64,000 bases of DNA from Scleroderma bovista (lineage: Eukaryota > Basidiomycota > Agaricomycetes > Boletales > Sclerodermataceae). The translations under genes and the position numbers were made by a program. The notes beneath the pieces were generated by a model. It was not told the DNA's origin and did no database searches. It saw only the letters and a list, made by a program, of their open reading frames with translations. Shown piece by piece: positions 24,358 through 53,036 of this stretch. Numbering within the stretch: the stretch's first letter is position 1; each line of letters begins with the position of its first letter. The stretch spans positions 111,886-175,885 of the forward strand of contig JAYMGJ010000126.1 of the NCBI GenBank assembly GCA_037178675.1, given 5' to 3'.

Positions 24358-25596
24358 TTGATGAATATCACTGATCTAAACCAGGCATTTTCTGAGAGTG
24401 GAGTAGGCGACACATACCTCATAACAGACCTGGCATCAGAGGCACACCATCTTGAACCAGCAGCACCGCACAAGCTCTTGGCAGACCAACATTGTGCCTA
24501 CGACATCATCGACTGCCATCTGCAACAATTCATTAGTGGCAAGTGTCCCAAGCCCATGTGAATGATAATACCTGGCGAAGCAGGTGTGGGCAAATCCAAA
24601 ACAATCCAAACCATCACTGAAAATTTCGTGGCGCAGGGCATGGGCAACACATGAGTCAAGGGCACATACACCGGTCTGGCCACGTCAATAATTGACGGGA
24701 AGATGCTACATTCTATAGCCATGATGCTGTTGCGAGGAGGCAAGCAGTCAGTACAAATGGTGAAAGTATTGGATGAGTACTGGAAAGACAATCACTACCT
24801 GATTATCGACAAAATCTCCTTGGTGTCTCAAGAGATGTTTGCCAAACTTTCCAGTATCATCAGCCGTGCTAAAGCTGGAGAAGTCTTGGCATCTGAGGAA
24901 CCATTTGGAGGGCTCAACGTCATATTAGTAGGCAATTTTCACCAATTTCCAACCATGGCCACCAAACCATCAGCAGCACTGTATTGCCCTTGCAATCCAG
25001 AGAAGGACACGCACAATGACCTATTGGGAAGGAAGTTATACAAACAATTCAACACCATTGTGTGCCTAAAAACTCAGGTTTGAGTGACACATCCAGAATG
25101 GTTGGACCTCTTGCAGCATGTCCGCCATGGCAACTGTGATGAAAGACACATTGTCATGCTTCGTCAGTTCATTGTAACGCACGATGACTGCCCACCCACC
25201 AATTTTACCACCCCTCCATGGAAAGATGTTCTTCTGGTTACCCTGAGGCATGTGGTCTGAATGAAGTGGAATAGCATGACTGCTAGAACGCGCACACAAG
25301 CACTTGGCATTACACTCATCATTTGATACTGTGCAGGGATGCCAATTAACATTAGAGGAGAAATTCACAGTGGCAGTGAAACCCAAGACAGAACAGGGCA
25401 AGAATCATCACAACTGGGTGGGACTTGCCGACAAGGTGGAAGTCATGGTCAGGATGGAAGTTATGGTGACATTCAACATATCAACTGATTTGGACATTGC
25501 CAATGGAGCACAGGGCCACGTAGTCGAAATAGTTCTTGACCCACGAGAACAGATTAGCACAATGACAGGCCAGGTCTACAAATTGCAATACTCACC
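24358..25596 (+). pseudogene. PIF1-like DNA helicase, 5' portion (interrupted)
   Basis: A decayed copy of the repetitive PIF1/RecD-type SF1 helicase family common in Agaricomycetes. In order: LLADQHCAYDIIDCHLQQFI, Walker A GEAGVGKSKTIQ, TYTGLATSIIDGK, a Walker B segment LIIDKISLVS in which the catalytic Glu has become Lys, FGGLNVILVGNFHQFP, then MVTFNISTDLDIANGAQGHV and LDPREQ. In-frame TGA stops lie at 24559, 24652, 25081 and 25258, each where family context favours Arg, and the frame shifts by one near 25,300. The piece stops at TAC TCA CC (25596), where the 27.4 kb KDZ insertion begins. Its continuation is at 53,037. The true 5' end is not clear. Confidence 0.8.
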
Positions 25597-25760
25597 GAGC
25601 CCATGCACCTGGGTAGGCCGTGTTATACGGTCAGCGGACAATGACAATCGGCTGTGCTACACGGGCTGGTGGAAGTGAGGCTTATGACTAGAGCTTTTCC
25701 GTATCACAGGGGTCAGCCCCTGACAGTATTGTCACCAAGTGACAATGGTGGGCCCATGGC
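25597..25760 (+). repeat. Left terminal inverted repeat of the KDZ element
   Basis: Begins GAGCCCATGCACCTG. Blocks shared in inverse orientation with the right end are ATGCACCTG (25603), GACAATCGGCTGTGCTACA (25644) and TGTCACCAAGTGACAATGG (25730), followed by TGGGC. Sequence between the blocks has diverged and differs in length by about 36 bp. Confidence 0.75.
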
Positions 25761-25959
25761 TCTGTTGTCATCATGGGGTAGGGTGAAAGTCTTAAGCCGG
25801 ACAAATTGGTGTCGTCGTGAAAATACTTGGGCTGAGAGGAGTAGCATACCAATAGAATAAGTGAGCCAGTATGCAATGGAGGCAGTGTGGTGGAAATCTG
25901 ACGGCAGCAATAACACCATAGTGAGCCGGTCAATCAGCATTGTGGCATGGTCAACAGTG

Positions 25960-26135
25960 CAGCAAAGTCAACACTCCGGCATGTTCAACATCCCGGCACA
26001 GTCAACCGATGAGATGTTGTGCTGATGAGATGTGGTGCCGATGAGATGTTGTGCTGATGAGATGTGGTGCCGATGAGATGTTGTGCTGATGAGATGTGGT
26101 GCCGATGAGATGTTGTGCCGCTGATGTGGTGCTGG
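25960..26135 (+). repeat. 16-bp tandem array, TGCCGATGAGATG type
   Basis: About ten units alternating TGTGCCGATGAGATGT and TGTGCTGATGAGATGT. It shares the TGCCGA/TGCTGA core with arrays near 38.6-39.35, 47.9-48.2 and 51.75-52.03 kb, all within the KDZ element. Confidence 0.8.
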
Positions 26136-26199
26136 ATGTTATGTGTTGGCCACATCAATTTAGTTCCGGTGGTTCCTCGTGCCGGATCTTGGCCTAACG

Positions 26200-26860
26200 G
26201 TAGTTAGTTAACACTATATCCACGGCGATACATCTATATAGAGGACATAGTATCTAGGGCCTGATGGGTATACAGGGAGATCAACCTTGCGGCCCATCAC
26301 ACTCGATGGGAAGCCAATTCACAGGCCTGCCCAACTATATAGTTGTTCCCACATTGAGGGCTTGTTTAATCCTCTGGGACACCCCATTCATGGCTTGTCA
26401 CTTTAAAATGTACTTGCAAGGTTTCCCTGCATAGCTAGATAACACCTCTGCTAGGGCCTGCCCAATGCTATGGGATACCATGGCCATTGCCTGTCAGACT
26501 GAACCCATATGCTGGGCGCACTGACTATAAATGACACTGTCTCCAGGGCTTGCCCACAGTTATGGGACACCACACCTGTGGCTAGCACCCCTTAAAGGTA
26601 CAGTCTCCGCACAGCCCATTGGAATGCAAGGGACAATAGTTCCATGGCCCTTTGGTAAGAAAGGGACTCTGTTGTTACAGCCTGATCAAAGCCCGAAACA
26701 CGATATTCCTCTGGCCTGCCAATAGAAACGGCAAACCATATTTAGGGCCTGATGCAAAGCACGGGACACTGGCACTGCAGCCCTCCTACTCACTCCTATT
26801 TGTTGGGCTCTATAATAGAATAGAGAACACTATATCCAGGGCCTCCTGCTCTTATAGATG
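26200..26860 (+). repeat. Subterminal block, left copy
   Basis: Diverged direct repeat of 52,060-52,650. Shared landmarks in order: GAGGGCTTG...AATSCTCTGGGACACC, ATTCATRGCYTGTCACTTT, TAGATAACACCT, CAATGCTATGGGA, and CAAAGCAYGGGACACTGG. The block is rich in GGGACACC-like phrases and has no coding signal. The stretch from here to 27,424 (GC-rich to about 27,170, then AT-rich) holds no gene. Confidence 0.75.
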
Positions 26861-27424
26861 ATACGGCGCCTGGGGCTGTTATGTAATCATGGGACACCAT
26901 CATGGGCTTGACACATTGTGTGACACCAATTTAGCGGCGTGCCTTGGGAACTCCAGGAGGCGGGGCCTACTCTGCTACTTCTAGCCCCTTGGCCACAATT
27001 CCATGGCTACCCTGCTGCTTTGGCTGCCATGCTGCTAACAGTCCTTCGGCAGCAGTGGCCATCCCTGGTTCTCTGGCTGCATTGCTGCAGCATACCGTTC
27101 ATTTGCCGTGATACCGCGGCTGTACTTGTCATAGTGGCAGCCACCACTGCCGCCCGGCCATGATTGGTTACAGCCATCACAGCTGCGAACTTGACAACCA
27201 GCATAAGGTATCAACTTGCAGCACCCATTGTATTGGAGACATGCACTATTCCCATTCATGCTGATGTGTTCCCTGTGTGATTTCTGCCTTATTGTTAACC
27301 TGGCCAGGTGTTGCAGCCGCAGCTCAGATTTTGGCCGGCAACATTATATCACAGTGTCGCTTTGGCTGATATTTGATTAACCAATTATTGTTGTGATGAA
27401 CATATATGTGTATTCATACAATGT

Positions 27425-28180
27425 TTACCTATGGCGGCACTCCAAAGACTCCTCCCATTTCTGCCGCAATGCATTTGGTGCACGGGTTAGCATCTCAATG
27501 GCCTCCATCCTTTTTGCACAATGCTGCATCACCTCCATATGATATTTAAGGGCATTGTCTGAGCTCCGCAAGATCTTGTTGCACAAGTACCGTGCATTTG
27601 ACAAGGCCTTGTCCGAGGTATATCCAATGGTGAGCTTTCTATCAGCAACCTGGAAAAGCTTTAGTACCTAACACAACACGAATAAGGGAGCATACCAGGT
27701 CTGCTGGAAAGAATGCCTCTGCCTCCGATACCATGTCCTGCAGTGGCCGCGTGCTGTACCCTGCCATACATGCACCGTGGCCATTAACCCACCACGAGTT
27801 TGCCACTTGCAGCATACTTGGAACCTGGACTTTGGCGGCCTTGGCATGATAGACATTCAACTGTCGCATTGCCGCATACAGTCTTGCCGGTGGCAGATTT
27901 TCTAGTATGACCATTCTGTGCACCCTGCTCGCCATCATTGGCAATATCATCTTTGCACCCATAGCCTGGCATGCGGCAAGCACACGTTCTAAATTTGCCT
28001 GGGGGCTCATGAGTGTGTTAATCAAATGTAATCATTCTCCACTTACCACTTCCGTTTGTACGTTTGCATACCATTCAGCTGTGGCCAGCATCCCCTCGGG
28101 CTGTTGTTGAACCACATGCACCAACCATCGAAAGCGGACTCCAACGTATTGCAATACCATGGACAGTTCACAGGTTTCGC
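27425..28180 (-). CDS. Unknown KDZ-element gene, 5' end truncated by LTR-like repeat
   Basis: Not recognised. Reading on the minus strand from the repeat boundary: an open exon containing LQYVGVRFRWLVHVVQQ, a GTAAGT...CATGAG intron at about 28050-28009, a long exon with MILPMMASRVHRMVILEN, LQVANSWWVNGHGACM and AGYSTRPLQDM, a GTATGC...CCAG intron at about 27699-27655, and a last exon ending ECRHR-stop at 27425. There are no in-frame stops. The sequence is mildly basic with helical stretches and has no membrane segment. The upstream exons are missing: position 28,181 starts the 2.1 kb repeat, and no matching coding sequence is found at the far end of that repeat (37,570). It is therefore a 5'-truncated gene. 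Confidence 0.5.
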
Positions 28181-29490
28181 TGTCATGCACCAAACAGGTT
28201 TGGTACAGTGAACATGGAAGATAATGCCTATATCGAATGATCCTTATGCGAAGGATAAGCATGACGGACCCTCATCGTAGCCATCTATCGCACAAGAAGA
28301 CTATCCTGATGCGAGAGATGAATGCCAATGCAGACAGTCATCTATCGCATGAGAACCACCAAGAAGCAGAAGAAACTGAAGGAATGACGTCAATTGTGGT
28401 ATGAGAAAGGAATGCACACATCTGCAGTCCAACTCCCATACCAGAACGATCAAAGAAGCTGAAGAATTGATGGAGAAACGAAGGAGAAAGAGAAGAAATG
28501 ATTTTTAGTGCCCAAATGTCATTTTTAGGTGCCCAGTGCCGGCATTCCAATATTTTGAATAGCTCCATCGTTTCTGAAGCTATCAGGCACGTGACTATAC
28601 CGTCAGAGAGCCTAGAATCTGGTCTATCTGCCTGTCAAGTTCCGACGCAAATCCATTCATTTCCCACGGAGATATTCCCCCCGCAATCCAGACGTTCACT
28701 TCATCGCTCACTATGGAGTCCGTATTTTCTCTGAATCATTTCTCCACTATTGCTGCAGATCTCCACTATGTCCTGCTCTTAGGACAGCCTCTCCCAGAGT
28801 TCCCGTGCACTGCCTGGCACATATCTTCCCAGCCTGCTCCCTCAGTCCCTCTCGTTCTCGGTCAGCACGTTCTCCTTGTCAGTCCTGCATCAAGGACGTA
28901 CTTTGGTCATCTTAGGTCTATTGTCAAGCTTGAGAAGTCTTCTCTGGTCGTCTCTGTGTCCCCTGAGCCCTCAGCCTATGGTCCCTTCCTCCCAGATACT
29001 TGCCATGTCCATCTTCCTCTGTCATTTGTCTCGCTTCCCTGGATGTGTTGAATTCAATACTCTATCTGCTTCCCTACTTTCAGACGACGTCCCCCAGCAC
29101 CATGACAGTTATTCCCCCCACTTTATAGTGCTATTAGGAAGAAGAACCCTCTCTCATTCTTTCCCAGAAGAGAGCTCGTCAAGGGAGCCCATGGTTGCAC
29201 TTCAGCGGCACTAGAACACATGCACTATACCTTAGTGTATGCTGACCCCCCAAAAAGACCTCTGGACCCCTGGTACCCTTCTTGTGGCTGTTTTGTCTCG
29301 GATCAATCCCCCTGTTTATCTCAGATCTTCCCCATTGTTGTCCCATCAAATTCCTGATGGTACACAGCCCCCCATCAAACTTCTTAGGCTGTGCATCAAT
29401 GACTCCTTCTGCTGTGCAGTGACTCATCCCTTGCTTACTGATGCTCTCTTGTCATCAGTATTACTCTATCCCTTTCACATTTTTGGTATA
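28181..29490 (+). repeat. 2.1 kb LTR-like repeat, copy 1, left part
   Basis: Starts TGTCATGCACCAAACAGG and is nearly identical to the inverted copy at 62,922 downward. At 29,490 it is interrupted by the Helitron, and the rest is 36,779-37,569. Joined length is 2,101 bp. The repeat begins TGT and ends ACA as LTRs do. It holds an open frame at 28713-29051 (starting MESVFSL) whose protein is also nearly unchanged in copy 2, where it is longer (61998-62390). I cannot assign that protein. No clear target duplication flanks this copy. Confidence 0.7.
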
Positions 29491-29494
29491 CTAG

Positions 29495-29516
29495 CAGATA
29501 CCCGTGGCTACGCCAC
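29495..29516 (-). terminator. Helitron 3' hairpin
   Basis: Perfect 5-bp stem with 3-nt loop (GTGGC, GTA, GCCAC) followed by 9 nt and the terminal CTAG. In Helitrons this palindrome marks the end of rolling-circle transposition. Confidence 0.85.
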
Positions 29517-29964
29517 TCGACAAAAAGTTAAGGGCAAGCTGCATCAATTTATGTTCTTTTGTGCAGACTCTGTGCTTGATGGAAAACTGCCACCGAAGAC
29601 ACAATTAATATTGGAGTGTACCGTGTAACACCATGATTGAACCCATCTCGACTGTTACTGTAAGATAAGAGAGTAGAAAAGGATTGACTGAAGTTAATTA
29701 TGGTGGTGTATGGTAGTCAGACAGATGCCAAAAGGATGGTATGTGAAAAGAATGATACGGGGGTAAAGGAACTGTGACATGCACAAAAAGAGAATGGACC
29801 GTCCATGACCGGAATACTGGCTTAATGAGTGGGATCTTCAAGTCGACGCTTCTTCGCAGACCTGGATTTTGTGAAGTCAAATTTCATGCTTGCACGCCCA
29901 GCTACCGGAGTGGATGGTTCTGATAAGGGTTGAGAATTAGCTCGTCTATGAGATGACAGTGAAA

Positions 29965-30819
29965 CTACCCACCTGTCACCGGATCTCGGGTGCTTGACAT
30001 GACTATAGGTCGCCCAAGAAATACCATGGATTCAATCGTAACACAAAATCCCTCACGAGCCTGAGGTGCACCAATCCTCTCAGTGATGAACCCAGTTACA
30101 GAAACATACCCCCCAGCCTTTGGAGTCGTCTTTTTACCAGACTTTGTCTTCCATCTCGGACTATCAGGGATCAAGCACTTGACTGGTAAGACCGATTTGA
30201 ACCGGCGAGTACTGGAAAGCGCTGGAGAACCCTCGATTGATGTGGTGTGCAGGCCAGGGAGATTCCGTAGTACGGCAACATACTGGTGTGGGGTGAGGTT
30301 GAAGGTGCCCATGAGATCGTCAACGGATTCCGCAACCCCACAAATGTTGATGTATGGGAGGTATTTCGGATCAATGACTTCGGCATCATCGGTACCATCT
30401 GGAATCTTGATTGGAATGAGCTGTAACATCATATTAGAAAAAGTAAACATTGCACAAACACAATATAATACACTCACATTGACAATATCTCCCACCAGAT
30501 CATACTCTGTCTCGGGAGGACAACTGGGCTGGCGGGAAATCATTGCACCTGCCTCCATCATTGCGACCTAGTAGTAAAAATATGAGCCCTTCAAGCAGAG
30601 ATTTAAAAAATCAGGACCTACACTTGCAGTAACGAAGTAGAAGCCAATGTCACTGAACTCGCGGCCTTCACGATTGAAGTACCTAAGTGCAGCAAGAATC
30701 GGCGTTGACTTGCCAAGGTAAATCTGAGCATCAAAAATGTAGCTCATGCCCTCAATATGTCGGCCGTTCTCGAAAACTGCAATGGCAGTGATGGTTGCTG
30801 AAGCTCCAGAAGATGACAT
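29965..30819 (-). CDS. Helitron-borne conserved protein, possibly an OB-fold ssDNA-binding (RPA-like) factor
   Basis: Three exons: 30819 to about 30621 (MSSSGASATITAIAVFENGR ... FYFVTAS), 30567 to about 30478 (starting VAMMEAGAMISRQ, ending GDIVN), and 30420-29965. Introns are GT-AG and keep frame. The final exon carries YLPYINICGVAESVDD, KCLIPDSPRWK, GYVSVTGFITER and VFLGRP. The alternation of short beta segments, and the position next to a Rep-helicase on the same strand, recall the RPA1-like genes known from plant Helitrons. The RPA link is inference, and I see no zinc ribbon. The protein is about 245 residues and has no stops, in keeping with a young element. Confidence 0.55.
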
Positions 30820-31106
30820 TATATCAAAAGCTGAAAACAAATGTGAGAAGTCAAGATAGTAGTACTAAGGAGCGGGATGGAAAGGTGTGCGAACCAGTGA
30901 CAATTGTTGAAGATATATATACCAGGTAAAATCGGAGATATTTGTAAGTGACAGAAAACCATGGAATCTTTGGGAATTTTCCACTAAGATGGAGGAGGTG
31001 GCACACAATGTAATTTCTGGCAAGAGCACATCTTAGGAAGCAACTAAAACAATCCTGGTTTCTTGAAACAGAGTTTCAGCATGCTTTTACTTGCCATGCA
31101 GTAGAC

Positions 31107-34100
31107 TTACCAGATGAGAATTTCGGGATAGACAACATTCGGTGTTGTTGTTTCACCTGAAGGAAGCAAAACCGAAATGCGCTGGCATGATGTTGCACGA
31201 GACAGTGCAACATAAAGTTGCCCGTGACTAAAAACAGGAACACGCAGATCTAGACCAACGTACTTCACAGACTGTCCTTGTGCCTTATTGATAGTCATCG
31301 CGAATGCAAGACGAACTGGAAATTGACGGCGTTTGAGGACAAATGTGAAGTCTGCATTTTTAGCTGATGGTATGAGTGAGATTCTTGGAATAAAGGCCGT
31401 CTTCCCATCATGGTCCCCACCAAGAATGCGAACTTCAAGTACTCTGTCTGACATTTGAATTAGTACCATGCGTGTCCCATTGCACAGACCATCTTGGGGT
31501 GCGAGATTCCGAAGTAGTATCAGTGGGCAACCAATCTTCAGTGTAAGTTCTCCTGGTGGGAGGCCTGATGCATTAAGTGAGCGCAAAAACTCCACTGGGA
31601 AGGCTTCTGCCTGATCATTGTCTTCAGTATCCTTCGGGTGATGCACTTCATCTGCACTGAAGTACGTTCTTTCATCGCCACACATTTTTCGGAGAATGTC
31701 CATGTTGATGTCATCAACATCACCATTGCGAGCAGCAAGGATGGTTCGGTTCTTGAAGTACTCAGGAGGTGGGATGTTCTGACTGTCAATCCCAGCATAG
31801 ATATTGTTGATCAGGGAACCGAGATCATGTGTGATCATGTCTGCTGGCAATGCAACATGACCATCAGCGTTGCAGTTATTCCCATGACCAACATCCAAAA
31901 GCCATTCTGCAAAGTCTCGGCTCTCTGCATCTGAGCTTTCAAGGCGCATATTCTTTGTTAACCGCAGGATTTCGATTTGCTTCCAAAGGTAGGACCGCTG
32001 GACTGTTGCATTCACAATATCTTGTGGAGAGCCATGGCGAACGACTGGCAAGATTTGCTGATAGTCCCCTCCAATGACGACTGTGATACCACCAAATGGC
32101 ACATCCGAATTATCCCTGAGATCACGAAATGTCCGATCAACAGCTTCTAAGGCATGCTTGTGTTGCATGGTGATCTCATCCCAGATGATAAGGCAGGTTT
32201 GGCGAATGAGACCTGCAAGAAGGCTCTCTTTTGGAATGCGACAAAATGAATCCTCTGTCAAGTCATCCACCGGAATTTTGAACATTGAATGTGCAGTGCG
32301 GCCTCCTCGCATGAGGAGTGCAGAAATCCCTGAAGAAGCCACACAAAGGACGATCCGTCCCTCTGCCCTGATGTGGTGGCAGACTGTCTTGTAAACAAAA
32401 GTCTTCCCTGTGCCACCTGGTCCATTGAGGAAGAACAGTGTTCCTGCATCATGCTGAACTGAATCAATAATGCGATCAAATGCTTCAAGTTGCTCGTTGT
32501 TTAGGCAGCGAATGTTTGCAATGGCTTCTTGTCTTTCCACATCAATATTGTATGCCCGCTGCTCAGCAATGAAACGATTTCCAACAACAGCACCCCAGTT
32601 GTGCTGATGCTGAGGCATGGAAAAGTCTGACAAAGTATGGCCCAATGCTGTCAACAACTGATCGAGAAGATATAAGCCGTAGTCATAGACATCCTCAGTG
32701 GTGGGATTGTTATGCTGAAGGTTGGTGATCAAGTAGTGCCGCAAGTCATCACAGATGTGCTGCCGGAAGTCCATCCAGAGTGCTTCAGGGTCAGCAGGAC
32801 TACAGAAAAGGAGCATCGTGCAGAAGAGTTGACGGAGTTGATGCCCTGTTTGCATTGCAGAAGCTTCCTCCAGACACTGCCGCCACTCCCCATCATTTTC
32901 CAAGAGTCCACGGGCAATGCAGGCATCACGAAAGGTGGGATAAAGTATGCCATTAAATGCTCGCAAATGAGCAAATGACGTGGGGCCCTTAACAATTGTT
33001 AGGAGGGTCCGGAGATAGAAACGTTCTCCACTTGTTGGACTGACATAATACATGCGACCAAGTGCATATCCCCTCTGACGCAGAGCCCAGACCTTCTCCT
33101 TTGGCTTCCATGTGAAGTACTGAGGAAACTCCTGGTAGGTGTGACGGCGGGCTTCCACACCAAGTGCCCCAAGATCTGCATTAGCATTGAAAAATGCGGT
33201 GAGTGTTGTCTGCTCCGTAGCAGCCCGTTGCTGTACAGCCTCAACATCCTCGTTTGGATCAAATGTCACCATGTGCTGTCCTGGCAAATGCACTTGCAGT
33301 CGAGTAATAGAAGGCTGTTGCTCATGAATGTGAAACTGGAGAATCCACCACATCGACTCTGGAGCAGAGATATAACGACCATCAATGTATTTCTTGATCT
33401 CATCTCGCCTGGAGCTGACCTCCAAAGTTGTCCGATCTTGACCCTTGCAGATATATTTGTTGACATACTTCAAAGAGCTGAATGTTACACCACACTCGAC
33501 GTTGATGTGACAGTCGAAGGTGACTGACATGAATGGGTTGTAGGGCACAATCCAGCGATTGTCAAGATCGTGGTGACCAACTTTGAAGCTACGGTGATCA
33601 TCCGGACGAAAGTACAGTGGGTAGCCTTCCTTGTCCATGTTCGTTTGTGCTTGGAAGGGCTTCGGATACCCTTTGGTGCATTTGCCATTTTCCATGCACG
33701 GAGCATTCAGGTTGAGGGCACCACATGGTCCATGTACCATGCAGGCTTTGACAGTGGCAAAGAGCAAAGGTTGCATATCAGGGTCAGGCCATCGTGCCCA
33801 TATGACTGAATCAACTTCAGCAGGAGTAAGTAACTTGTATGGATGATTGAGGAAAATAAGCATATGCATGTGGGGTAGCCCCCGTTTCTGGAACTCGATG
33901 GTGTATATGTATGCGACAGTTCGGCCAAAGACACCATGCTTGGAGGTGTAGTTGATAATAGCCTCTTTCTTCATGTGAAACACGCGTGCCACTAAGTCTG
34001 GGCGATCTGAGGCTTTCTGCCCTGGAAGCAGCTCCCGTTGAATCTCAGGCCAAGAAGGATTGCATGTGACGGTCATGAAGATGTCAACTTTCCGGAAGTG

Positions 34101-36107: not shown

Positions 36108-36778
36108 TGCTGTAGGGCAATGAGCTTGTTGAATTCCTTAGTGGTACGAACATAATACCCTCATGTTTGTGCGAAGTTGCTTGCAAACTTGTGAGTGCAA
36201 CTCGCTTTCGTGGATGAGCATCATCCTCTCCAAGGCCCTCGGCTGCAGCTCGACAGTGTTTGCCATGTGTGGACAGCTGGGCTGAAGTCGAAGAACCTTG
36301 AATGAAGTCGTCACGCTTGTCTGACGATGCTTGATGAATGCTGCTTGCGTCATTACTTGCGCTGAACCCTTCTCAACTGTTTTCTGCCTGAATACTGTTC
36401 CACTACAAGTCCAAAAAAAAAGTAAGGAATTAGCACTCAGAAGGTATACTCAACTCACCCGAAGGCCGTGGTTGTGATCATCTGAAGACGCTCGGCGCAC
36501 ACTGTGGATGCTCTCCCACGTGCTAAATACATGTTAACGTTGCAAAGTGAGGTCTAAGGCGCGAAAACCATACCTCTCCACATGCCCATGAGCCATCTTG
36601 TGGTGTCGAGCGCCAATCAGAGACTGCTTGACAGTGGTTGGTGAATGAAGTGGAAGAGTGCTGGCTCGTTAAGGAAAATTACCAGCCAATGAGAATTAAG
36701 AGTTGTCTCAAGTTGTCAGCCAATGAGATTTCAGAGTTGTCTGGCGTTCTCACGAGCTAGCTACTTTAATATAGAAGA

Positions 36779-37569
36779 TTACTCAGCTGATGACTCACTC
36801 CCTTACCAATCAATCTTGTCATGCAGCTTACTCATTCCTTTACTCAGCAGGTTATTCATGCTCCCTATGCTTACTCATTCCTGCTTATCCCTTGCTTACT
36901 GATCGCTTACAAACCCCTTACAAAGTTCTTACCAATCCCTTACCAATCCTTGACAAATTCTGCTTACTCCCTTCTCTTTTTGTACTTTAATGCTGTGCCC
37001 CCCATGTATTTAAACCCCTGGGCTCAGCCCAGTGAAAAAAGGACCCAATTGCACGAAATTATCCCTCTCTCAGACTCTCTCAATCAGTATCCCTTCAGTC
37101 TTTGAGTCCTTGTAGGCTTCAGTGAAGGTCTAAAGGCTCAATATTGTCAAGTTTATCCAAGTTATTCAAGATCTATTCTTTATACTAGGCTCAAGCGGAG
37201 TCTAGGCTTCATACCAGTCAATCTTCCTCGCCTCTGGACATCAGAGGCATCCCTGCCCCTTTGCTGCACCAACCTCTAGGTGTAGTATCGCTACTTCAGT
37301 CCCTGTCAGCCCAATCCCCGCTTTGACACTTCCTAGGCTTTAGGAAGAGTCCAGACCCCTATCCCCTTCATCTTCTATTACTCCTGTACCCAAGGAGTAT
37401 CCTGCATCATCGTCTGCATCACCCTGTTGGTGTAGATCCCCTTCCCCCCTCCTCAGCATATCCTCTCTGGACACCGCGGAGGTAAACCACCACTCGCACA
37501 TATTTGTAGTCCTTTGTTGGTGTTGTGTTTGGGTTATTACTCCGACCCAAATCCACACTTTGACTCACA
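36779..37569 (+). repeat. 2.1 kb LTR-like repeat, copy 1, right part
   Basis: Continues copy 1 after the Helitron and ends TTTGACTCACA at 37,569. It contains repeated ACTCATTCC/CCTTAC phrases, a TATTTAAA box at about 37,007 followed by CTCAGCCCAGTG, and a pyrimidine-rich stretch. This layout is like an LTR promoter with a downstream R region. The promoter role is inference. Confidence 0.65.
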
Positions 37570-39400: not shown

Positions 39401-39813
39401 CTACAGCACATATGTTATAGCTAGCTGTTGCACTGGCACACAATGGTTTCTAGCTGCGGTAGTTGATTGTTATCAATGCCAGCAGTCGTGGAACTATGAG
39501 GACCACGGCCGGTAGGCCCATGTTTGCACATCTTCCCTTGGCAGATTTATATTTACATATTGGCCGAAGGGTGTTCATGCATGGCATTCAATTGCTCCTG
39601 GTGCATGGCTTTGCCATTGCGGCTACCAGCGAATCTATGTGCCACTGTCCATGACCCTCCCATTCCATCATCCATTCATTCCAAGGTATGCACCCCATAA
39701 ATACCTTGCAGTTGCACCTTGTTTTTTCCACTAACAGCCACTTGATGATCCGTTTCAAATATGTCCTCTTTGCATACCATATAGCGGTATTTGATGCCGA
39801 TGGTCAATGCCAA

Positions 39814-42800: not shown

Positions 42801-43336
42801 TTGGTCCACCCGGTGGAAGGGCCGCAACTTGTGTTCCTTTCTGCAACAGGAACTGCAGAGCAAGGGCCGGTGAATGCATTCGGCACATCTGTACGTGCCA
42901 TCTCCTTGACACAACATGCAGACCCTTGGGTCAGGGGGTGCCTCCATGTCCAGAAGGACCTGGAGGTACCTCTGCTTGTATGGCAACCATGCCAATAAGT
43001 AACTGTCCTATTATGCCTTCAGGAGGACATGGCAAGTGCAGGATCGGAATAAATCACACACCTGATTCTTTGACACACCTGTTCTCTTTCGGGGTGGAAG
43101 ATCATCCATGGAAAGGTATGGCTGGCCATCATCTGGAAACAGTTGGGATTGTTCTAATCCTATAGATGCTGACTGGGTTGGAGTGTCATTCGAAGGAGCT
43201 TTTCCATGACGGGCCTTCTTTCGGGGAGTTGCCTTCACCATCTTATCAATAGATCCCCTCCTTGATTTGAATGCCTGCCATGTTACATGGACCACCGGAG
43301 TAGAGCTACCAGCAGGTTGTATCTTGGACTTTGCCA
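39814..43336 (-). CDS. CxC2-KDZ transposase (one frameshift)
   Basis: DDE-type transposase of the KDZ superfamily, with an N-terminal CxC2 cysteine cluster for DNA binding. Starts at ATG 43336 (MAKSKIQPAG), with about nine exons on the minus strand. Order: LLAWLPYKQRYLQVLLDMEA; the zinc cluster CMLCQGDG...CAECIHRPLLCSSCCRKEH with FHRVDQWNGTFF; YRELLRVSRMWRLLKLLKWQG; first catalytic Asp in IVMDGNFKAKHM; GCFVPHAMVDFQKGE; second Asp in ITFYDINCQYSKNL; catalytic Glu in GRVDGEIMETLWSSLN. Then one extra A (plus-strand T at 41286-41287) shifts the frame, after which MATPHRQELLDFQMNDNN resumes. The C-terminal part is open: RKLKNAQEALMSAEGAFAEL, FSDTFHPQDPNYSDAVVLPL, HWLRAKALRDRWDEEV. The stop is downstream of an exon around 39,814. 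It is probably inactive unless the indel is a sequencing error. Confidence 0.88.
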
Positions 43337-43755
43337 TGAGTGGTATCTGATGAGGAAATCCCTGCACAAAGTCTCCCACATTGTATCTCACTGAAGCCTC
43401 ATTGAAACAGCACGGACAGTGATCGGAAAGGGATCTGTGGATCTGCCGATTTGGATCTAGCTTTTGTAATATGGACTTGAAGATCAGGCACCAATGCAAA
43501 ATCCCATATATGGTGGCCGCTACTGCATTAGATCCAAAGTTAAAGTCCAGAAATAGCATCTTAGCTGCCGAACAACATAGCCGGCCCCAGAAGTAGCTAG
43601 CTCACCAATGCATTTTCCAAAAGAAGGCAGCGGGGAGGAATTGAAGACTAATTGACATGGGAGAAACAATAGCTTGGGAATCCTTCAACAAAGTGTCGGG
43701 GACTTTTCTAGCACAGCACCACTCAAAAAATATCAAAGTCTACTCGACATACAGC

Positions 43756-45585
43756 ATGGCCCGCAATCGTTCCTCCAGCAGATCTATGGAGAATCCTGAT
43801 ACAGAAGATGAGCAAGACAATTCCTCTGACTCGTCGGGCCCAGAGGCACCACAAAATGTGGTAAAAACCAAACTCCGGGATGATGAGGTCGAGGTCCTTG
43901 AGGAAGCCTTGGAAGACTGGAAGGCAGCGGACAGCAACCAAAGGAAAGGTATGAAGAATGCCATGAAGGCAAAAATCAAAAATCTCCCTGCCAATAGCAC
44001 ACTCAAAGGACATGAATGGGAGAAGAAGAAAAAAGTGCGCCCCATTTCCATAACTTCACATGGACTACTGATGCATCAGTGATATCAGGCAATTAAAAAT
44101 TGGTCGTATAACCACAGCTGAGCCCGTGCCCGAAAGGCCCTAGTAAAGTATGGATGTAGGTGGACTGCCAGATCAGTCATAATGAAGTCGAAGAAAAAAG
44201 AAATTGAGGCTGAATTCGAACAGGCTGGAATTGCCCAAGGAAGCACAAGCATGATTAAAGGCTACCAAAAGGCAGTAGGAAGCATCATGGGGAAGCTCAC
44301 CCAGGAGGAAAGGGATGTTGCGGCGAAGCAGGCTGATGAATGGAACGAGGAGCAGCCGCCGGCAGAGGTCCAGGCCGAGTAAGTTTGTCATGTTGTCTCG
44401 ACAATTATTCATCTGCAAACAGAATGGCCGAGACAAAAGGCCGACAATATGTCAAACAGTTTGCGCAGGAAATGTGGTGGCAGTGTGGGATGAGGGTGGT
44501 TGTGATGGCGGCATGGAAGGGCCGGAATGGTCAGCCCATGATGGGAATGTATGTCGCTTCTCACTTGTGGTATTTGTATACTCACATTCACAGGCATGAC
44601 TTTAATTCGGCATTGGGACAAGGGAAGACCTTTGCTGATTGGGACGACATCAAGCACCACTGGGATGCCTATGCACAGCAGGCCATAGGAGGGGAAGAAC
44701 ATGATGATAGTGATGATGATGCCGGACCGACGATCTGCCAGAAGAAAGGGCAGAAGAGGCCGCAAACTGTTTTACCAACAACGGAAGATGGCACACCAAT
44801 GATTCCGATCATCCTCGATATGCAAGCATTGGAGCGAAAGGATATTATGAGGACTTTTGTGACATGGCATTATCGTAAGTTCTGCCTTGTAAATGGAGAA
44901 AGAATTGACCCCTTGCCGCAGGCAAGGCATGCGGCAAGCCAAGTGCCAGTGTTCCTTGGGCTGCCATCCATGCAAAGACCAGTATCTACATATCATCTGG
45001 GTATCTGCCGCGGCATTGGGAGTTCAAAGAGCCGACCCGGCTCACAAATCAGGAGGTTACCAAGGTACTGGAATTCTGGTGGGACAGGCAAGTGACAGAT
45101 CCAGAAGATGTACTGACATTTCACAAATGGAGAGATATGGATGGTGGATTACAAGATCCAGTATCAGATTGTGAGGACTCAGTGGCCGGAATGATAAGTG
45201 GAGAAAAGCTGCCCCTGGAAGGTTAGCTCTGAATACTTTTATCAACTTGTTTTGACTGGTTCAAAGAACATGCGGCACCGGATGTGGAACTCGCAAACAG
45301 TCGGAAGAGATGGCGCACAATGGGTATGGATCTTTCAACCCTGTTATACAACCATTGACATGCATAAAAGAAGAGGCCCCAGAGGAGAGGGAGTCCGGTG
45401 CAACAAACAAAAACCGATGCCGGTCAAACCGGGATGATGGTACGCCCCATACGTATTCCAAGCATTTGATCCTCCTACATTTGGAACATCCCTGTCAGCA
45501 AGCCATACAATGCCCATTGAACAGCCTGGTCAGTTCCTTTGAATATTTTTGTTGTCAGAATATGAAGTTTATATATAGAGGATGA
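43756..45585 (+). pseudogene. Conserved Agaricomycete family often seen beside KDZ genes (one nonsense codon)
   Basis: Function unknown. It is divergently placed from the transposase (about 420 bp between starts). Exon 1 starts MARNRSSSRSMENPDTEDEQ and is acidic, then KLRDDEVEVLEEALEDWKAA. A later exon reads KNWSYNHS-stop-ARARKALVKYG, where TGA at 44119 replaces an Arg expected in this family, then RWTARSVIMKSKKKEIEAEF, MAETKGRQYVKQFAQEMWWQ, a GTATGT...CAG intron (about 44548-44595), HDFNSALGQGKTFADWDDI, FVTWHYR, a GTAAGT...CAG intron (about 44872-44921), KACGKPSASVPWAAI, TRLTNQEVTKVLEFWWDRQ and DPEDVLTFHKWRDM. The 3' end (near 45,300-45,585) is uncertain. It is rich in charged residues and helices, with no catalytic motif I can name. 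Confidence 0.6.
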
Positions 45586-46234
45586 CTCGGATGGACATAA
45601 TGCAAGATCATCTAAGGAAAATGGTGCGTGGTGCTTGGTTTTGTTATGCCGGTGGCAACATCTTCACGAAGAGCATCAGCGGCACTGACAGCACGGCAGC
45701 CGGCCGAACCTAAACAACAAGGTGGGTATCAGTCTCAATTACTTGGAAATGGCACATATTCTCATATAAGAAAAAGCACATATGGATCCCGGAAACATCA
45801 TGGCTAACGGACCGATGAAGCCAAAGCCCCGGGTTAAAAAGAGCACAGCCGATGTGCCGGTGGAATGTAAGTCTGCCTATTTCAATATCCATTTACCAAT
45901 TCCGACAAATGATAGTTGGTAAATTAACTATGGATTCCATTGGCAACACAAATGGGATGGAGGGTGGTTGATCAGGGGATGATGATGTCACACACTCTGG
46001 AGGAAAGGGGAAGCAGGCTGCCAGCACACGCCGGATTGCCAGGGCTCAAAGTGTCAATGCTGTTGCCGGGCTGAGTTAACCGGAACAGCAAAGATGGCGG
46101 CCAAAGTGGCCAGATGCCGATGTCCCTACGCCCAGCCCAAAGAGACGCCACAAATAATATATCTGTAGAATAGTTGTATTGTCAAATTTTCAATTTGTTG
46201 TCCTGAAAGATTTTATTGCGGCACTACTGTAACA
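45586..46234. other. Short non-coding spacer between convergent cargo genes
   Basis: Plus-strand remnants of coding character may continue the 43.8-45.6 kb gene, but no frame stays open for long and no terminator element is recognised. Confidence 0.35.
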
Positions 46235-47483
46235 CTACAGCTTGGAGGGATCTAATACTACCACATCCTCAGGGTGATCAGCCTCAATTATGTCACCATT
46301 CTCACCAAGTCGGGCTGACCTAGCCAACATATCCCGCACATTCGCCAACATTGCTCTCCGGCACATTTCCGATCTCCACAGCCTGGCAGTGTCGAGCAAC
46401 GTATTTGCATAATGAATGTAGGCCGCGATGATAGGGTGGTCAAGGCCGGCATCAAGTGGGAGTAGGTCGGGCAAGTGCCTAGGAGGGACAGATGTAGCGA
46501 CTTGCCTTGCAGAGGCCACTAGATGACAACTGATCAACTGATACTATGGATGAAGCCCAAGAGAGACTTACATGAAAGCGCATCATTCATGAATGGATCC
46601 AAATCCTCATGCAATGCATTAATCCTGTCCACCATTTCAAAATAATCCACTGGATGATTGTTAAATACACATAATTCCCGCAGTAATACTGACCATCCTC
46701 TGCATGCACATGTTCCCGGAATCGTGCATGTGATCCAGATGCAGCCTCAGGAGATGATTCTGCCTCCATTGGGGAGGTGGGAATCAGCTGGCTTGATGCT
46801 GGGCTGGATGGCGATGCCAGGCTGGATGGTGATGCAGGGACTGAGGATGCCGGCATCGATGGGGATGACGTCCCAATACGTGGCACGTGCACTGGAGAGG
46901 GCAGGATCCATGCGGCCATCGTGGGGGATGGCGATGGTGGCATCCATGCTTGCGGTTGGGTCCCTTGGGATGATGGCTGAACCGATGGGGTAGTTGGCAT
47001 TGCTGCTGGGGGTGGCATTGACGCCTGCGACCGAATGGTGAGGGTAGATGGCACATTGGATGGACCTGCAGCGATTGGAGGAGATGGTGGCATCCAAGCC
47101 TGGGATCTAGTCATGGGGGTTGCTGCACGCATCTCATGTGCTGAGGGGCCAGGGAGGTTAATCGGAGCTGATTGCAAGTGGGCTGGTAACTGATCGTTTG
47201 CTGCTGTTGCTTGTCTGTTGCTGTCCACAGACATTGCATCCTTGTTCCTCACAGACACATTTGTGCTCATTTCACCTGTGCGCATCCCGTGGCGTGGGGG
47301 AGAGGGTGGCATCCAGTCCATGCTTGATGGCAGGTGTTCGTTGACAATGGATGGAGGCGGGTGCCACACTGGCAGTGCAGGAATGGCTGATAACAATGTC
47401 ATGCAGATCAGCTCAGAGGAGAGAAATTACTCACTCAATTTCCGTGGACTTGCGCTATCAAATCTGACAGACTTAGGTGGCAT
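46235..47483 (-). CDS. Pro/Ser-rich unknown protein of the KDZ element
   Basis: Starts MPPKSVRFDSASPRKL at 47483. A GTGAGT...CAG intron (about 47435-47384) leads into a long exon of low-complexity sequence with repeated WMPPSP phrases (six or more), then SSSPEAASG-like sequence and FREHVHAEDG. A final exon (46537-46235) has a helical C-terminus, including IIAAYIHYANTLLDTARLW and MLANVRDMLARSARLG, and ends DVVVLDPSKL. I do not recognise a domain. The N-terminal KSVRF style start is common in basidiomycete disordered proteins. No stop interrupts it. Confidence 0.5.
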
Positions 47484-48594
47484 GGCGGTAGCAAAGATGC
47501 AAGTTGACAAGATGGAATTGACGTGGAATGGAAATCACAATTGAATGATTATATAATAATGGTTTCCATATATAGTTCATCTATCTCACCACTGGAAAGA
47601 TTGGCATAGTTGCATAGTGCCGATAGTGGGCAAGTGCCGATGTTATACAAGTGCCGATTGTATTACGAATGTATGTCCTGCTGCTGGGGTGTGTGCCGAC
47701 TGTCTACCGTATGCATGTGCCAATGGAATGCTGTGCTGATTACAGTATGTTACCCCTATCAATACCTAATGCCGCCATCCACAGCAATTATATATACTCT
47801 TGCTATTTATGTATATCGGTAACATTGAAGAATTACTCCAGAGGTAAATCTTGCATTTGCCGGCGAGAGATTGGGATAGTATGTACATAGTGCCAATAGT
47901 GTGCTGTGTCGATAGTGTGATGTGCCGATAGTATGTTGTGCCAATATTATGTTGCGCCGATCCTATGATGTGCCGATCCTATGTTGTGCCGATGTTATGT
48001 TGCGCCAATCCTATGTTGTGCTGACATTATGTTGTGCCGATCCTATGTTGTGCCGATCCGTTGTGCCATGCTGATAGTGTCTTGTGCCAATGGTTTGCAA
48101 GTGCCAATGTTATGCTGATGGTGTGTTCCAGCGGTGTGGATGTAATGCTGCTGGTGGTTGTGCTGATTGTATGCCATATGTATGTGCCGATGCAGTGCCG
48201 AGTGGATGTTCGCCCTTGTATGTTCTGCCGATTATGTTGTGCCAACAGTGGATTAAAGTATGTTGCTCCTTCCAATACTTGATGCCACCATACACGGCAA
48301 TTTTAGTTACATCTGCAGGACATATCTAGCCTCCTCTTGGCATTCATGTATATCAGTGATGTTGAAAATTTACTCCACAGGTAAATCTTGCATGTGCTGG
48401 TGACATATTGGCAATGTGTTCATGGCTGTGGTTGAGACCATTACTGGCATGTCTCTGACAGAGTTCGCAGGCTGCATCAATGATTCACAAGGACAACTCT
48501 ACATCCATAAATATACTTTACAATGCAATGTATATGGTATACATGGAATAGGAATCGGAAATTGTACAAAAGATGTAGGTATGATAAAAGAAAA
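47484..48594. repeat. TGTGCCGAT array and flanks
   Basis: From about 47,610, and most densely 47,880-48,260, phrases of the form ATGTTGTGCCGATCCT recur with 16-18 bp spacing. Two similar AATATATAC...TTTACTCCAGAGGTAAATCTTGCAT-like stretches at about 47,800-47,870 and 48,340-48,410 form a direct repeat around the array. No gene is supported. Confidence 0.65.
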
Positions 48595-50530
48595 TTAGTC
48601 TGTTTGCATTTGCACACCGGCATCGTGCCTGCCATCGGCATCGGAACTCCCAATCTCCATATCGGATGCCGGCGTCCCAACATCTCCATCTTCCGGCAGG
48701 CTGACCTCGATTGCCGGAATATTGCCGGTCTCCATTGTTGCGGGCACTTCATCACAAATCGCTGTGTCAACAACACAATGTTGTGATCAGTAGCACATAG
48801 CTTGGTAATTGACAGACTTACTGTTTGGTGGGGCCCAGTCGTAGCTATCACCGGTTGGCTTGCTGGCACCCCTTTCATCGACCAAGCCTGGAGTTGCCAC
48901 CTCAAGACTTGAGGCATTGTGGGTGCCGGTCGGCTTGTTCGAGCCATGCCAGGATGGATTGCCGGACAACACCATTTCTTCCAGCATAGTGGTAGGTGCT
49001 AGTGCCAACGGGCTTGGCAGACTGGGGTGAGTGCACTGCGAGACCTTGGCACATATTGAGTCAGATGCCGGCTCTGTCGGTGCAAATGCCGGACATTGAA
49101 GGTGGGATGGTGTTGGGAACATCTGTTCCCGCATCGCTTCAACCACCTGCCGTAAGCTGGCGACTTCTCTGAGCGCGACAGCCAACCTGTCATTTGCTTC
49201 ATCCACCTTTCGTTCTGTTTCGGCCTGCTTTTCCCTCAAACGGACAACCTCCTCCTCGAGATCTTGTACATTGGAGGTATTTGTACTGTCTCCCGGTGTT
49301 GTGGGAGGGTTCGTGCCACTGCCAGCAGCTGTTGACAATGGACTTGCCGTCCTCGATGTCTTCCCTAGCCATGCTGGAGTATTGATCAGTACCCCATCAA
49401 AAACTGCATGGAATATCGATAGAAATGATATTAAATGGTTTGAATAATGAATGACTTACCTTGTTTCCTGGGCGGATTGGCCGCTGCTGGTGCTGGGGTC
49501 TGACGTTGCCTTTTTGAACGCTGTGATCTTCCTCAATTGAGCGTTGAGGGCGCAGATGGTGAGCGCTGACGTGGTGCTGGTTTCCTCGGTGCTTGTGAGC
49601 ACGACCTTGACCTCACTCTGACTGCCGTCATCATGCTGCATGCAATCTTGCTGCAACAGCATTGCCAGCAAGCACGGCCTGGGTTCGCTGTGCACCGTCA
49701 ATCCCACTGTATGCACTTGATGCACCGATCCTTGTCATCCACCCACTCATAGCCTGCATCTGGTGTCTGCATGTCGTGAACGTTTGGCCTTGGTCGCTTT
49801 GGCCGTGGTTGCGATGAGCCTTCTTCATCGTCACCATCGCTGTTGATTGTTGTGACCAATTGGGCATGCTTCCTCAGCTTGCGACTGCGACTGTGGCCCC
49901 TAGGCGCTTCATCATCCTCGATGGCACCGCTTCCTTCTGGCACTGCTTGTGAGTCCTCAGTTTCGCTGGGCTCACCTACTTGGCCACAACTGCCTTGCAC
50001 CTCCGTCTCCTTTACCCCCAATGGTCCTGCCACTGCATTGTTCCCCAATGGCTCTACTGCTCTCCTCTTTCCCTTGTCCACCTTCTTCTGCGGCTTGCCT
50101 AGTTGGAACCAGGGATGGTCCTGAATATTGTGGTCGGTGGCATTAACGATGTCCGGGAAGTGAGGCCACTTCCCTGTCGACAGGATCACCTCTGGTGCCT
50201 CCATAAACTGGTCGGCAGCAACGATGATAGTCGGTATAATGAATCCTGCAGGTAAGTCCTGCAGGACATTCTCGACCCAACGCTATCATATCCTAATCAG
50301 TGAGTTGATTGATTGCAGATAAAATTTCCACACACCACCTGGGCCCAGATAGTTGACACTGCTTCCGACCATACACCCTTCTCCCGTGTGCTTCTCAAGC
50401 CATCAATCTGGCCTTGAATTATTTCAGCGGCCTGGGCGACGACTTCTTCTGCAGTGAGGGACGTAGCCGTTGACACGTCCTCTTGAATGGATGAGGCGGA
50501 GATGAACTGAGAACCTTCTGAAGTTGCCAT
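48595..50530 (-). pseudogene. Cys-rich, coiled-coil unknown protein of the KDZ element (two nonsense codons)
   Basis: Starts MATSEGSQFISASS at 50530. After an intron near 50,335-50,290 comes WVENVLQDLPAGFIIPTI, an acidic/basic linker with KKVDKGKRRAVE, then a Cys cluster RCIKCIQW...RCTANPGRACWQCC. TGA codons at 49698-49700 and 49533-49535 (plus-strand TCA) sit in the same frame at expected Arg positions. Downstream, after an intron, is a long coiled coil (VQDLEEEVVRLREKQAETER followed by about 40 heptad-like residues, 49250-49100). A last intron (GTAAGT...CAG, about 48821-48755) leads to an acidic tail ending in VQMQTD-stop at 48595. The Cys cluster plus coiled coil suggests a DNA-binding dimer, which is inference. 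Confidence 0.55.
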
Positions 50531-51745
50531 ATAGATTGTAAGGATGTGGAAATGGTAAAGCAGTGGTTGAGGAGAGGAAGAACTGGGTCTAATTGCTGTG
50601 CGGCCTGGAGGATGTTCAACGTATTATATAAGCATTTCACACCACAACATGTTTGCATTGTGGTCGCACACCAAAGTGGACTAAATCAAATATAGGTTAA
50701 TAATTCAGCCACAAGTCCGACCAATCATTGTCCTGACAATTCGGCTAATGAACCACACTGCCGCATTTCATATTGCATGGTGGCCGCATTTCTATTGCTT
50801 GTGATTGGCTGTCACAGTGCATTGTCCCATCACAATAACAAGGGATCTCGGATCGGCATTATGATTGGGCTTTGCAGTCGCCTTATTTTGGAGTTTGTCT
50901 ATCCCGTGGCATGTGATCTGACATGCTTGTGTTTAACAAGGAGCCTCAGTTATAGAAAGTGATTTCAAAGTGAGCAGCCTGCCAGCGCCGGCTCATCTAG
51001 CACTGCCGTCTCTTGGGGAACAATCAATGCGGCATGTATTAACACAGCTGCAGCTTGAGAAAGGCATCAAGGCCACATCTTGGTCATTGTGGTACGGCCA
51101 TCATTAATTTACTATCACTTACACCGTTGTCGGCACCCCCACCCATTCAGCACTTTGGTTTTTTACCACCCACTGCTCAACTACACACAAAATTGACTAG
51201 TACAAAATTTGTTTTATACCACTCGGATACTCTGATAGCTCGAAGGATCGATATATGTGCAGTAGTTGTTGAGATCACAAAAAATGCTGGGTTGAACAGC
51301 AGTCACGCTCATTTGTCACCCAAGTTGTCACAAGTGCCGAAGTGGAGTCACACTCTCATCACGGAATCTGTGTGACACCGGTGACATATGGTGACATTCT
51401 GTGACTGCCGAATGGGTGGGGGTGCCGACAATGGTGTAAGTGATAGTAATGCTATCATTGCAGCACTTATGTGCACAGCCACCACAGCTTGGCTGCCGCA
51501 GGCCAGTATGTCAGTGGGAAATGCCGGTTTCCACAATACTGTGCTGACACTACCACACGGCACGGTCATTCCCATATTGCTGCACAAGCAAGCATGATGG
51601 CCACATGGCTATTACTGCAGCACATTTGTGATTCTCGGCAAGGTATCATGGCATCCGGTGATCGGTGCAAAGCCATTACCAGTATTTATGTTGTGCTGTT
51701 CTTGTAATGCCGCAATTCTATTATGCCGATGGTAGATTGCCGATG
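50531..51745. other. KDZ-element non-coding region with an internal inverted repeat
   Basis: The phrase TTGTCGGCACCCCCACCCATT near 51,130 is the reverse complement of GAATGGGTGGGGGTGCCGACA near 51,409. Flanking words match too (TCACTTACACCG versus CGGTG...AAGTGA-type), giving an inverted pair about 280 bp apart. No gene is supported. Confidence 0.55.
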
Positions 51746-51749
51746 ACAT

Positions 51750-52030
51750 GTTGCCACTGTTGTGTCCTGCTGACAGTGTGTTCTGCCAACAGTGTGTTCT
51801 GCCAACAGTGTGTTCTGCTGACAGTGGTGTTGTGCCGACAGCCGTGTTCTGCCGACAATTGTGTTCTGCCGACAGTTGTGTCCTGCCGACAATTTTGTTC
51901 TGCCAACAGCCATGTTCTGCTGACAGCCGTGTTCTGCCGACAGCCATGTTCTGCCGACAGTTGTGTTCTGCTGACAGTTGTGTTCTGCTGCCGGTGTGTT
52001 CTGCCGCCAATGTGTTCTGCCAATGCCATG
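51750..52030 (+). repeat. 17-18 bp tandem array, TGTTCTGCCGACAG type
   Basis: About fifteen units of TGTTCTGCCGACAGT-like sequence, some with TGCTGAC or TGCCAAC variants. Frames on both strands stay open through it because the unit lacks stops, but they are not genes. Confidence 0.85.
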
Positions 52031-52059
52031 TCGTGCCACACCCCAGCTTACCGCTACTT

Positions 52060-52650
52060 TAGAGAAGACCAGATGCCCAGCCCTACATTTATACAAGGGA
52101 TATAGTTCCAAGGGCCTGCTGTGTATATTGGGAGGCCAAACATTATGGCCGATCATACTGAAGGGGAAGCATATCGGCTGGCCTTCCTATCTAGCTAGGT
52201 GTCCCCAGATGGAGGGCTTGCTTAATGCTCTGGGACACCGCATTCATAGCCTGTCACTTTGAAGTGTACTGCAAGGCCCTCCCATATAGGTAGATAACAC
52301 CTTTCTGAGGGCCCACCTAATGCTATGGGACATTGTACCTATTGTTGCCGTGTGCCCTGACTATATAGATGAAACTGGCTCCAGGGCCTACTCATAGTCA
52401 TGGGACACCAATCCCATGGCTAGGCATTCTTAAAGGTACACCATGCATGCAGCCCATTGGAAAGCACGGGATGCTGTTTCTATGGCTGGCCCTGCAACAA
52501 GAAAGGGACACCAAAGGTACAGCCCAATGCAAAGCACAGGACACACTATCCCTCTGGCCCACTGACAGAAACAGGACACCAATACCACAGCCAAATTCAA
52601 AGCATGGGACACTGGTACAGAGGCCTTTCTATTGACTCCCATCCGCAGGT
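52060..52650 (+). repeat. Subterminal block, right copy
   Basis: Direct-orientation partner of 26,200-26,860 (see landmarks there). It is followed by a CTGCGGCA-rich stretch to about 52,800, as the left copy is followed by a CTGCTGC-rich stretch, and then by the right inverted terminus. The open frames inside are compositional. Confidence 0.75.
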
Positions 52651-52844
52651 TAGCCGCATTGCGGCACTTACTACCATCCTTTTGCTGAAATGCTGCGGCA
52701 GCCCCCCTGCAATCCTCGGCCTGAATGTAGCGGCTACCCTGCGGCATATAGTCCTCTGGCCGCATGCTGCAGCTCCCTTGCCGCATTAGGTCCTACTGCC
52801 ACAGGCCATATCCTGATCTAGTGTACTAGTGTGTCAGCCCACCA

Positions 52845-53028
52845 ATATTACTTGGTGACAACCTCTCCATGAGCCACCAATATGGCACGGTGAAACACCT
52901 TACCATTAGCCCACTCGTATGACATGGGGATGCACCATGGCTGGGCCCTATCTCAGCTGGCCATGTAGCACGGCCGATTGTCAGCTTTGTCTGTCCATGT
53001 TGTATGGGACAATGCAGGTGCATTATGT
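52845..53028 (-). repeat. Right terminal inverted repeat of the KDZ element
   Basis: Read inward on the minus strand it begins ACATAATGCACCTG, then GACAATCGGCCGTGCTACA from about 52982 and TGTCACCAAGTAATATTGG from 52860. This is the same order of blocks as at the left end. Confidence 0.75.
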
Positions 53029-53036
53029 GACTCACC

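Follow-up and report, generated by a model that had tools for sequence, protein, structure and literature searches.

A 64,000 nt stretch of the Scleroderma bovista genome (contig JAYMGJ010000126.1; G000:C126:111886–175885), hereafter the window, carries a large insertion that is very probably a dead, multiply nested copy of a KDZ-superfamily DNA transposon of ~18–20 kb. The normal gene order of this transposon, from left to right, is TET/JBP (plus strand), CxC2-KDZ transposase (minus), accessory gene A (plus) and accessory gene B (minus). The insertion and its exact ends are real. Across the 51.8 Mb genome searched, the family has exact ends that recur in pairs, a 7 bp target duplication and TET and KDZ genes positioned between the ends, and an insertion-free relative of the target is present. 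The insertion and its borders in the window are as follows.

25590–25596, target duplication, left copy, ACTCACC, 7 bp
25597–53029, whole inserted element including nested insertions, 27,433 bp, GAGCCC...TATGTG
53030–53036, target duplication, right copy, ACTCACC, 7 bp

Ends, target duplication and empty target

The duplication is identical at 7/7 bases on both sides of 25597–53029. An earlier interpretation of this DNA, the sequence-only reading, proposed a single insertion with definable ends, and the paired ends, perfect 7 bp duplication and empty target relative bear this out. Its left end, 25597, is exact; its right end, 53028, falls one base short of the true end at 53029. The same reading described an 8 bp duplication with one mismatch (element at 25589–53036), a version that is mismatched because the left T is a target base and the right G an element base. 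It was rejected, since exact 7 bp repeats are found in 23 of 39 paired copies and none match at 8 bp; the duplication in the window is therefore ACTCACC and the right end is 53029.

When the flanks are joined with a single ACTCACC, they match G000:C134:88652–88901 at 98%, unbroken across the junction. More distant target relatives in C68 and C428 (69%) are likewise continuous there. The expectation that a target relative would hold no extra sequence at the junction was thus confirmed, as C134 reads straight through. A separate 2.4 kb insertion (G000:C134:86214–88651) lies 13–25 bases left of the junction in this relative. The target flanks were already degenerate, with stops and frame changes, and Pfam gives no family for either frame piece adjoining the insertion. 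The proposed splitting of a PIF1-like frame must be modified in this light: the frame had already decayed, and 'PIF1-like' is a reading only.

Recurrence and pairing of the ends

A 26-base left pattern and a 28-base right pattern, each allowed up to three mismatches, matched the genome 128 and 138 times, respectively; the reversed patterns, used as a control, gave no matches. The pairing analysis drew on the first 100 left and first 100 right matches. Among these there are 39 left–right pairs in the same orientation and the right order, 3,252–27,433 bp apart, compared with approximately four predicted by uniform placement, and nine other left–right combinations up to 40 kb apart. A perfect 7 bp direct repeat lies outside GAGCCC/TATGTG in 23 of the 39 pairs, and matching repeats of 4, 5, 6, 8, 9 or 10 bp were found in none. 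Mismatched pairing of flanks gave one perfect 7 bp match in 1482, and that one came from two copies with an identical right flank. The repeat is present in 10 of 21 pairs longer than 9.4 kb and 13 of 18 shorter ones. Fourteen of the 21 longer pairs measure 18.2–20.6 kb. Copies L047 and L060 have a common right flank, GATAACAAGGACCTT, with a matching left flank in one only, indicating a rearranged or duplicated insertion.

Nested insertions

The copy in C640 (L062; 20,484 bp) was compared with the window by BLAST of two fetched parts, with window positions 42818–43918 outside the comparison. It resolves the window element into the following parts.

25597–28180, KDZ element proper, left part, collinear with the C640 copy at 95.3%
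28181–37569, nested element X and Helitron, absent from the C640 copy, in the place of its TET/JBP stretch
29491–36778, minus strand, Helitron, 5'-TCTTC...hairpin-CTAG-3', between A and T (hairpin read by eye)
37570–53029, KDZ element proper, right part, collinear with the C640 copy at 95.7–97.9%

Once the nested block is removed, the KDZ share is 18,044 bp, so the 27.4 kb KDZ transposon of the sequence-only reading shrinks to ~18.0 kb. The 1.85 kb TET/JBP stretch of C640 is missing from the window except for a repeat of ~150 bp at its edge, and C640 has an additional ~0.55 kb near window position 52270. Element X, TGTCATG...GACTCACA, is ~2.1 kb long and is split by the Helitron in the window. 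It is also present in the C1 copy (L043), at a different position, lacking the Helitron and flanked by the 4 bp repeat GCGG. No family was assigned to element X.

Helitrons are recognized by a 5'-TC, a 3' hairpin followed by CTRR, insertion between A and T, and a Rep/Hel protein. All of these are present in the nested 29491–36778, and its empty A–T site is seen in L043. The open frame at 31107–35900, the largest in the window element, encodes a Helitron Rep/PIF1 protein of 1597 aa (PF14214, E 2.9e-62; PF05970, E 7.1e-76). A 2001-base query from this Helitron has 99% matches in C645 and C207. The Helitron was rejected as cargo of the KDZ transposon, as C640 lacks the block and the Helitron has its own ends and an empty site in L043. 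Degenerate minisatellite-like arrays occur within the KDZ element at 37.6–39.4 kb and 51.7–52.0 kb, the first of which matches C640 in both orientations.

Genes of the element

The gene regions of the window copy are as follows.

40044–43601, minus strand, CxC2-KDZ transposase gene region, several frames
43645–45226, plus strand, accessory gene A region, with a 251-aa frame (44340–45095) that has no Pfam family
46235–50623, minus strand, accessory gene B region, several frames, two frame changes relative to C640

A frame scan identified the CxC2 domain (PF18803, E 1.7e-26, 42160–42717) and the KDZ domain (PF18758, E 3.5e-25, 41272–41619; E 1e-29 for the C640 counterpart), both on the minus strand. 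The frame of the KDZ catalytic domain shifts near 41292 relative to C640, and because of this change and the two in region B the window copy looks broken. A search of the PDB gave nothing useful for the KDZ core. In the genome-wide profile lists, 150 of 317 KDZ candidates and 150 of 159 TET/JBP (PF12851) candidates were scored. A listed KDZ match falls within 15 of the 39 pairs, always on the opposite strand and 6.9–8.8 kb from the left end; the terminal blocks are therefore paired around KDZ genes elsewhere, as anticipated.

Of the 23 pairs measuring 7.4 kb or more, 22 hold a TET/JBP gene, which runs in the plus direction of the element and lies 3.6–4.7 kb from the left end. In the C1 copy, which holds element X, it lies 6.5 kb from the left end. 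The window copy, in which the gene is missing, is the sole exception. The TET frame of C640 resembles CcTET of Coprinopsis cinerea (PDB 7vpn), aligning over 4–169 (E 3.7e-26) with the HRD and distal H matched. The gene of the long copies is thus similar to those of enzymes that oxidize DNA methylation marks. Amongst the matches listed, the 16 pairs of up to 6.6 kb contain neither TET/JBP nor KDZ; tblastn detects a TET fragment in one of them, C207.

No Pfam family exceeded the cut-off in the frames tested from accessory regions A and B. Protein matches number nine for A and 21 for B, and the only organism-named ones are from Scleroderma citrinum, in which one A match and one B match probably share a single contig (433,648 bases). 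The five genes attributed to one element by the sequence-only reading need revision: the largest frame, 31107–35900, belongs to the Helitron, and the TET/JBP gene of the family is missing.

A second TET-plus-KDZ arrangement (TET frame of 181 aa, KDZ frame of 286 aa) occurs at C17, C441, C700 and C324 of G000, with an identical 3.3 kb gap in three of the four places. This is apparently another KDZ family.

Terminal blocks, target preference and short relatives

Two conserved terminal regions are recognizable in the window.

25597–25846, conserved left end, ~250 bp, with blocks A (base 7), B (46) and C (133)
52800–53029, conserved right end, ~230 bp, with blocks A (base 7 from the end), B (47) and C (169)

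Agreement with the majority letter is 0.94–0.98 over the first ~250 bp of the left end (28 rows, representing 27 distinct places) and 0.94–0.99 over the last ~230 bp of the right end (50 rows, 47 distinct places), and conservation declines inward of these limits. The proposal of three inverted blocks in the same order at both ends holds (A 7/7, B 46/47, C 133/169). In 19 copies examined with up to two mismatches, block A is present at both ends in all 19, whereas blocks B and C, found at every left end, occur at 16 and 17 right ends, respectively. The best local inverted match between the window ends scores 40, a value that none of 500 single-letter shuffles approached more closely than 29; scores of 50 and 37 were obtained for the short copy L060 and for L044, respectively. 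In L060, located in C139, the inverted match spans bases 7–177.

The family prefers a palindromic target, ATGCT-N7-AGCAT. At the 23 sites with a duplication, the right flanks have the majority sequence AGCAT immediately past it, and in 55 other flanks 125 of 275 letters fit AGCAT at the same offset, compared with 90 of 275 at the next best of 21 other offsets (offset 4, which overlaps); the P value of 1.6e-13 assumes independent letters. Left flanks outside the 23-site set mirror AGCAT at all five positions.

Short relatives have the same ends as the long copies. An origin of all short copies by deletion from the long one was rejected, as it fits C207, C448 and C1 only; in the remaining 15 of the 18 copies under 9.4 kb, the ends are ~86–92% alike and the interior is diverged. 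On the plus strand of many short copies (L045–L060), open frames several hundred residues long occur in more than one reading frame, a pattern that fits internal tandem repeats.

Relationship to known KDZ elements

TET-carrying KDZ transposons with 7 bp duplications are already known as a general kind, described in 2025 (Kojima, 2025; PMC12730594). That account gives TET-positive Kyakuja elements 7 bp duplications, 5'-CA..TG-3' termini and no terminal inverted repeats, and reports 8 bp duplications for Zisupton and Zisupton-1_PGr/Dileera. In Cryptococcus, KDZ1–3 are described as mobile, with inverted repeats of 139–241 bp; KDZ1 duplicates 8 bp of its target, and KDZ2 and KDZ3 duplicate 4–8 bp (PMC12810828). 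In view of these published elements, the remark in the sequence-only reading that a KDZ element is generally described through its transposase alone is out of date.

The Scleroderma family has the features of the KDZ superfamily: a PF18758 domain, a CxC cluster before KDZ and a short duplication of fixed length (23 of 39 pairs; 16 without). It resembles the TET-positive Kyakuja elements of Agaricomycetes (Kyakuja-1_LB, Kyakuja-2_LB and others) in its KDZ transposase, CcTET-related TET/JBP cargo (within the ends of 22 of the 23 pairs that reach 7.4 kb, the window copy excepted), 7 bp duplication, right terminus in TG and occurrence in Boletales. It differs in its left terminus, which is GA instead of CA, and in its inverted blocks, which extend over ~175 bp, whereas Kyakuja is stated to have no terminal inverted repeats (PMC12730594). 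In the accessible text of the same source there is no mention, for Kyakuja, of inverted three-block ends, short relatives with common ends or a target preference. The family shares with Cryptococcus KDZ1–3 a KDZ transposase with a CxC domain, inverted repeats and a short duplication; unlike it, those elements are ~9–11 kb long, carry CxC1 instead of CxC2 and have 4–8 bp duplications, with no TET mentioned in the text available (PMC12810828). It shares its superfamily and inverted ends with Zisupton, but the latter duplicates 8 bp (PMC12730594).

The family is assigned to the KDZ superfamily as Kyakuja-like, and is not filed under Kyakuja itself because its left terminus is not CA and its ends do contain inverted repeats. 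This placement draws on the duplication, the TET cargo and the relatives. In the literature on KDZ ends, as covered by titles and the starts of abstracts (with most subscription papers and all supplements outside), neither the family nor the target preference is named.

CpG change

Between the window and C640 copies, transitions affect 308 of 1339 CpG positions (23.0%) and 98 of 15,145 other positions. Two copies of a gypsy element without TET differ by transitions at 52 of 231 CpG (22.5%) and 48 of 1782 other positions. This comparison comprises one long KDZ pair and one gypsy pair; the 87 pairs of short copies and 390 pairs of right ends are non-independent. Element X, compared in its two places, has transitions at 29 of 130 CpG and 30 of 1967 other positions. 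The CpG observed/expected ratio is 0.46–0.53 in the KDZ parts, 0.89 in the left flank, 0.64 in the right flank and 0.81 in the gypsy element.

Measured against the majority letter in 30 right-end copies, CpG sites show 186 C>T and 204 G>A changes, in 47 columns each (~4 per column), compared with 0.56–0.69 per column for non-CpG C>T and G>A. Variants present in no more than two copies show no CpG excess (0.34 vs 0.32–0.36). As to the direction of change, these counts are mixed and lend it only partial support. The pattern looks like methylcytosine deamination and is not KDZ-specific. Hypermutation specific to KDZ was rejected, as CpG transitions are equally common in gypsy and no NCG context is prominent (0.125–0.152).

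Alternative explanations

Several observations weigh against the interpretation of the window as a nested copy of a TET-carrying KDZ transposon. The 7 bp repeat is absent from 16 of the 39 pairs, which means that some are rearranged, chimeric or misassembled. The site without the insertion is a related repeat at a different locus, not a sister-strain allele. Of the 22 long pairs besides the window, seven (C448, C1, C496, C131, C19, C568 and C76) contain no listed KDZ match, and the window copy is also without one, its KDZ having come from the frame scan. The left flanks of the 23-site set mirror AGCAT at the two outer positions only. Finally, TET does not visibly protect against CpG change, to judge from the similar rates in the window/C640 and gypsy comparisons.

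The 16 repeat-less pairs would also suit an origin of the two window ends from different insertions, with a 7 bp match by chance. This is the most improbable of the alternatives considered: all seven bases match, the empty relative agrees with the junction at every base, the compared interior is, the nested block apart, collinear with C640, and the chance rate is 1/1482. Scarcely more probable is that the whole 27.4 kb unit is a true giant KDZ with a Helitron-like helicase as its own cargo. The Helitron frame is indeed open over 1597 aa inside paired ends, and one other pair (C76) measures 26.5 kb, its interior lying outside the comparison. Against this, 28181–37569 is absent from C640; X is free of the Helitron where it sits in the C1 copy, and the Helitron has its own TC...CTAG ends at an A–T empty site; Helitron stretches are 99% identical in C645 and C207; and 14 of the 21 pairs longer than 9.4 kb are 18.2–20.6 kb.

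An identity as Zisupton or Dileera, with 8 bp duplications, instead of a Kyakuja-like KDZ is unlikely, although less so than the two preceding explanations. Of the 39 pairs, 23 have a duplication of exactly 7 bp and none has one of 8 bp. The organism-named relatives of the KDZ frame, amongst the 120 of 177 matches listed, come from Pisolithus, Scleroderma, Suillus, Gyrodon and Chiua, all of them genera of Boletales. Amongst TET-positive elements of that order, PMC12730594 gives only Kyakuja. The inverted repeats point the other way, being present here as in Cryptococcus KDZ1–3 (PMC12810828) and reported as lacking in Kyakuja (PMC12730594).

Other features of the window

A Ty3/gypsy-like element with a chromodomain lies at 55032–59770, with open gag (330 aa) and pol (1259 aa) frames; 42 matches were listed for a 2 kb piece of it. 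Pieces of alanine-racemase-like and zinc-binding dehydrogenase genes lie outside the KDZ element, at 1839–2447 and 10490–13391.

Proposed mechanism and implications

The KDZ transposase, probably a dimer, may bind blocks A–C, and it is because of such dimeric action that the target would be symmetric and the ends inverted. Movement would be by cut-and-paste with a 7 bp stagger, and the same transposase could mobilize the short relatives in trans. Silencing of the element may be eased by its TET enzyme, through oxidation of methylcytosine on it. In the window, the KDZ element would first have entered a decayed PIF1-like repeat; element X would then have arrived, after which the Helitron would have entered X, the TET stretch been lost and the transposase frame been broken.

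It is conceivable, if doubtful, that these copies constitute a distinct KDZ lineage, combining a 7 bp duplication, TET cargo, three-block inverted ends and a palindromic target with an abundant, short TET-less partner moved in trans, and with a TET that does not shield its own CpGs. If so, the benefit of TET must lie elsewhere than in sequence protection, for example in a burst of transcription or in chromatin state. The few CpG comparisons argue against simple protection from methylation-driven mutation. Precise ends, a stagger and a target preference are now available for a TET-carrying KDZ family with more than 100 ends in one genome, making a transposition assay and a binding test feasible. 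With TET-positive long copies and TET-less short relatives in the same genome, what a transposon gains from its own TET becomes testable.

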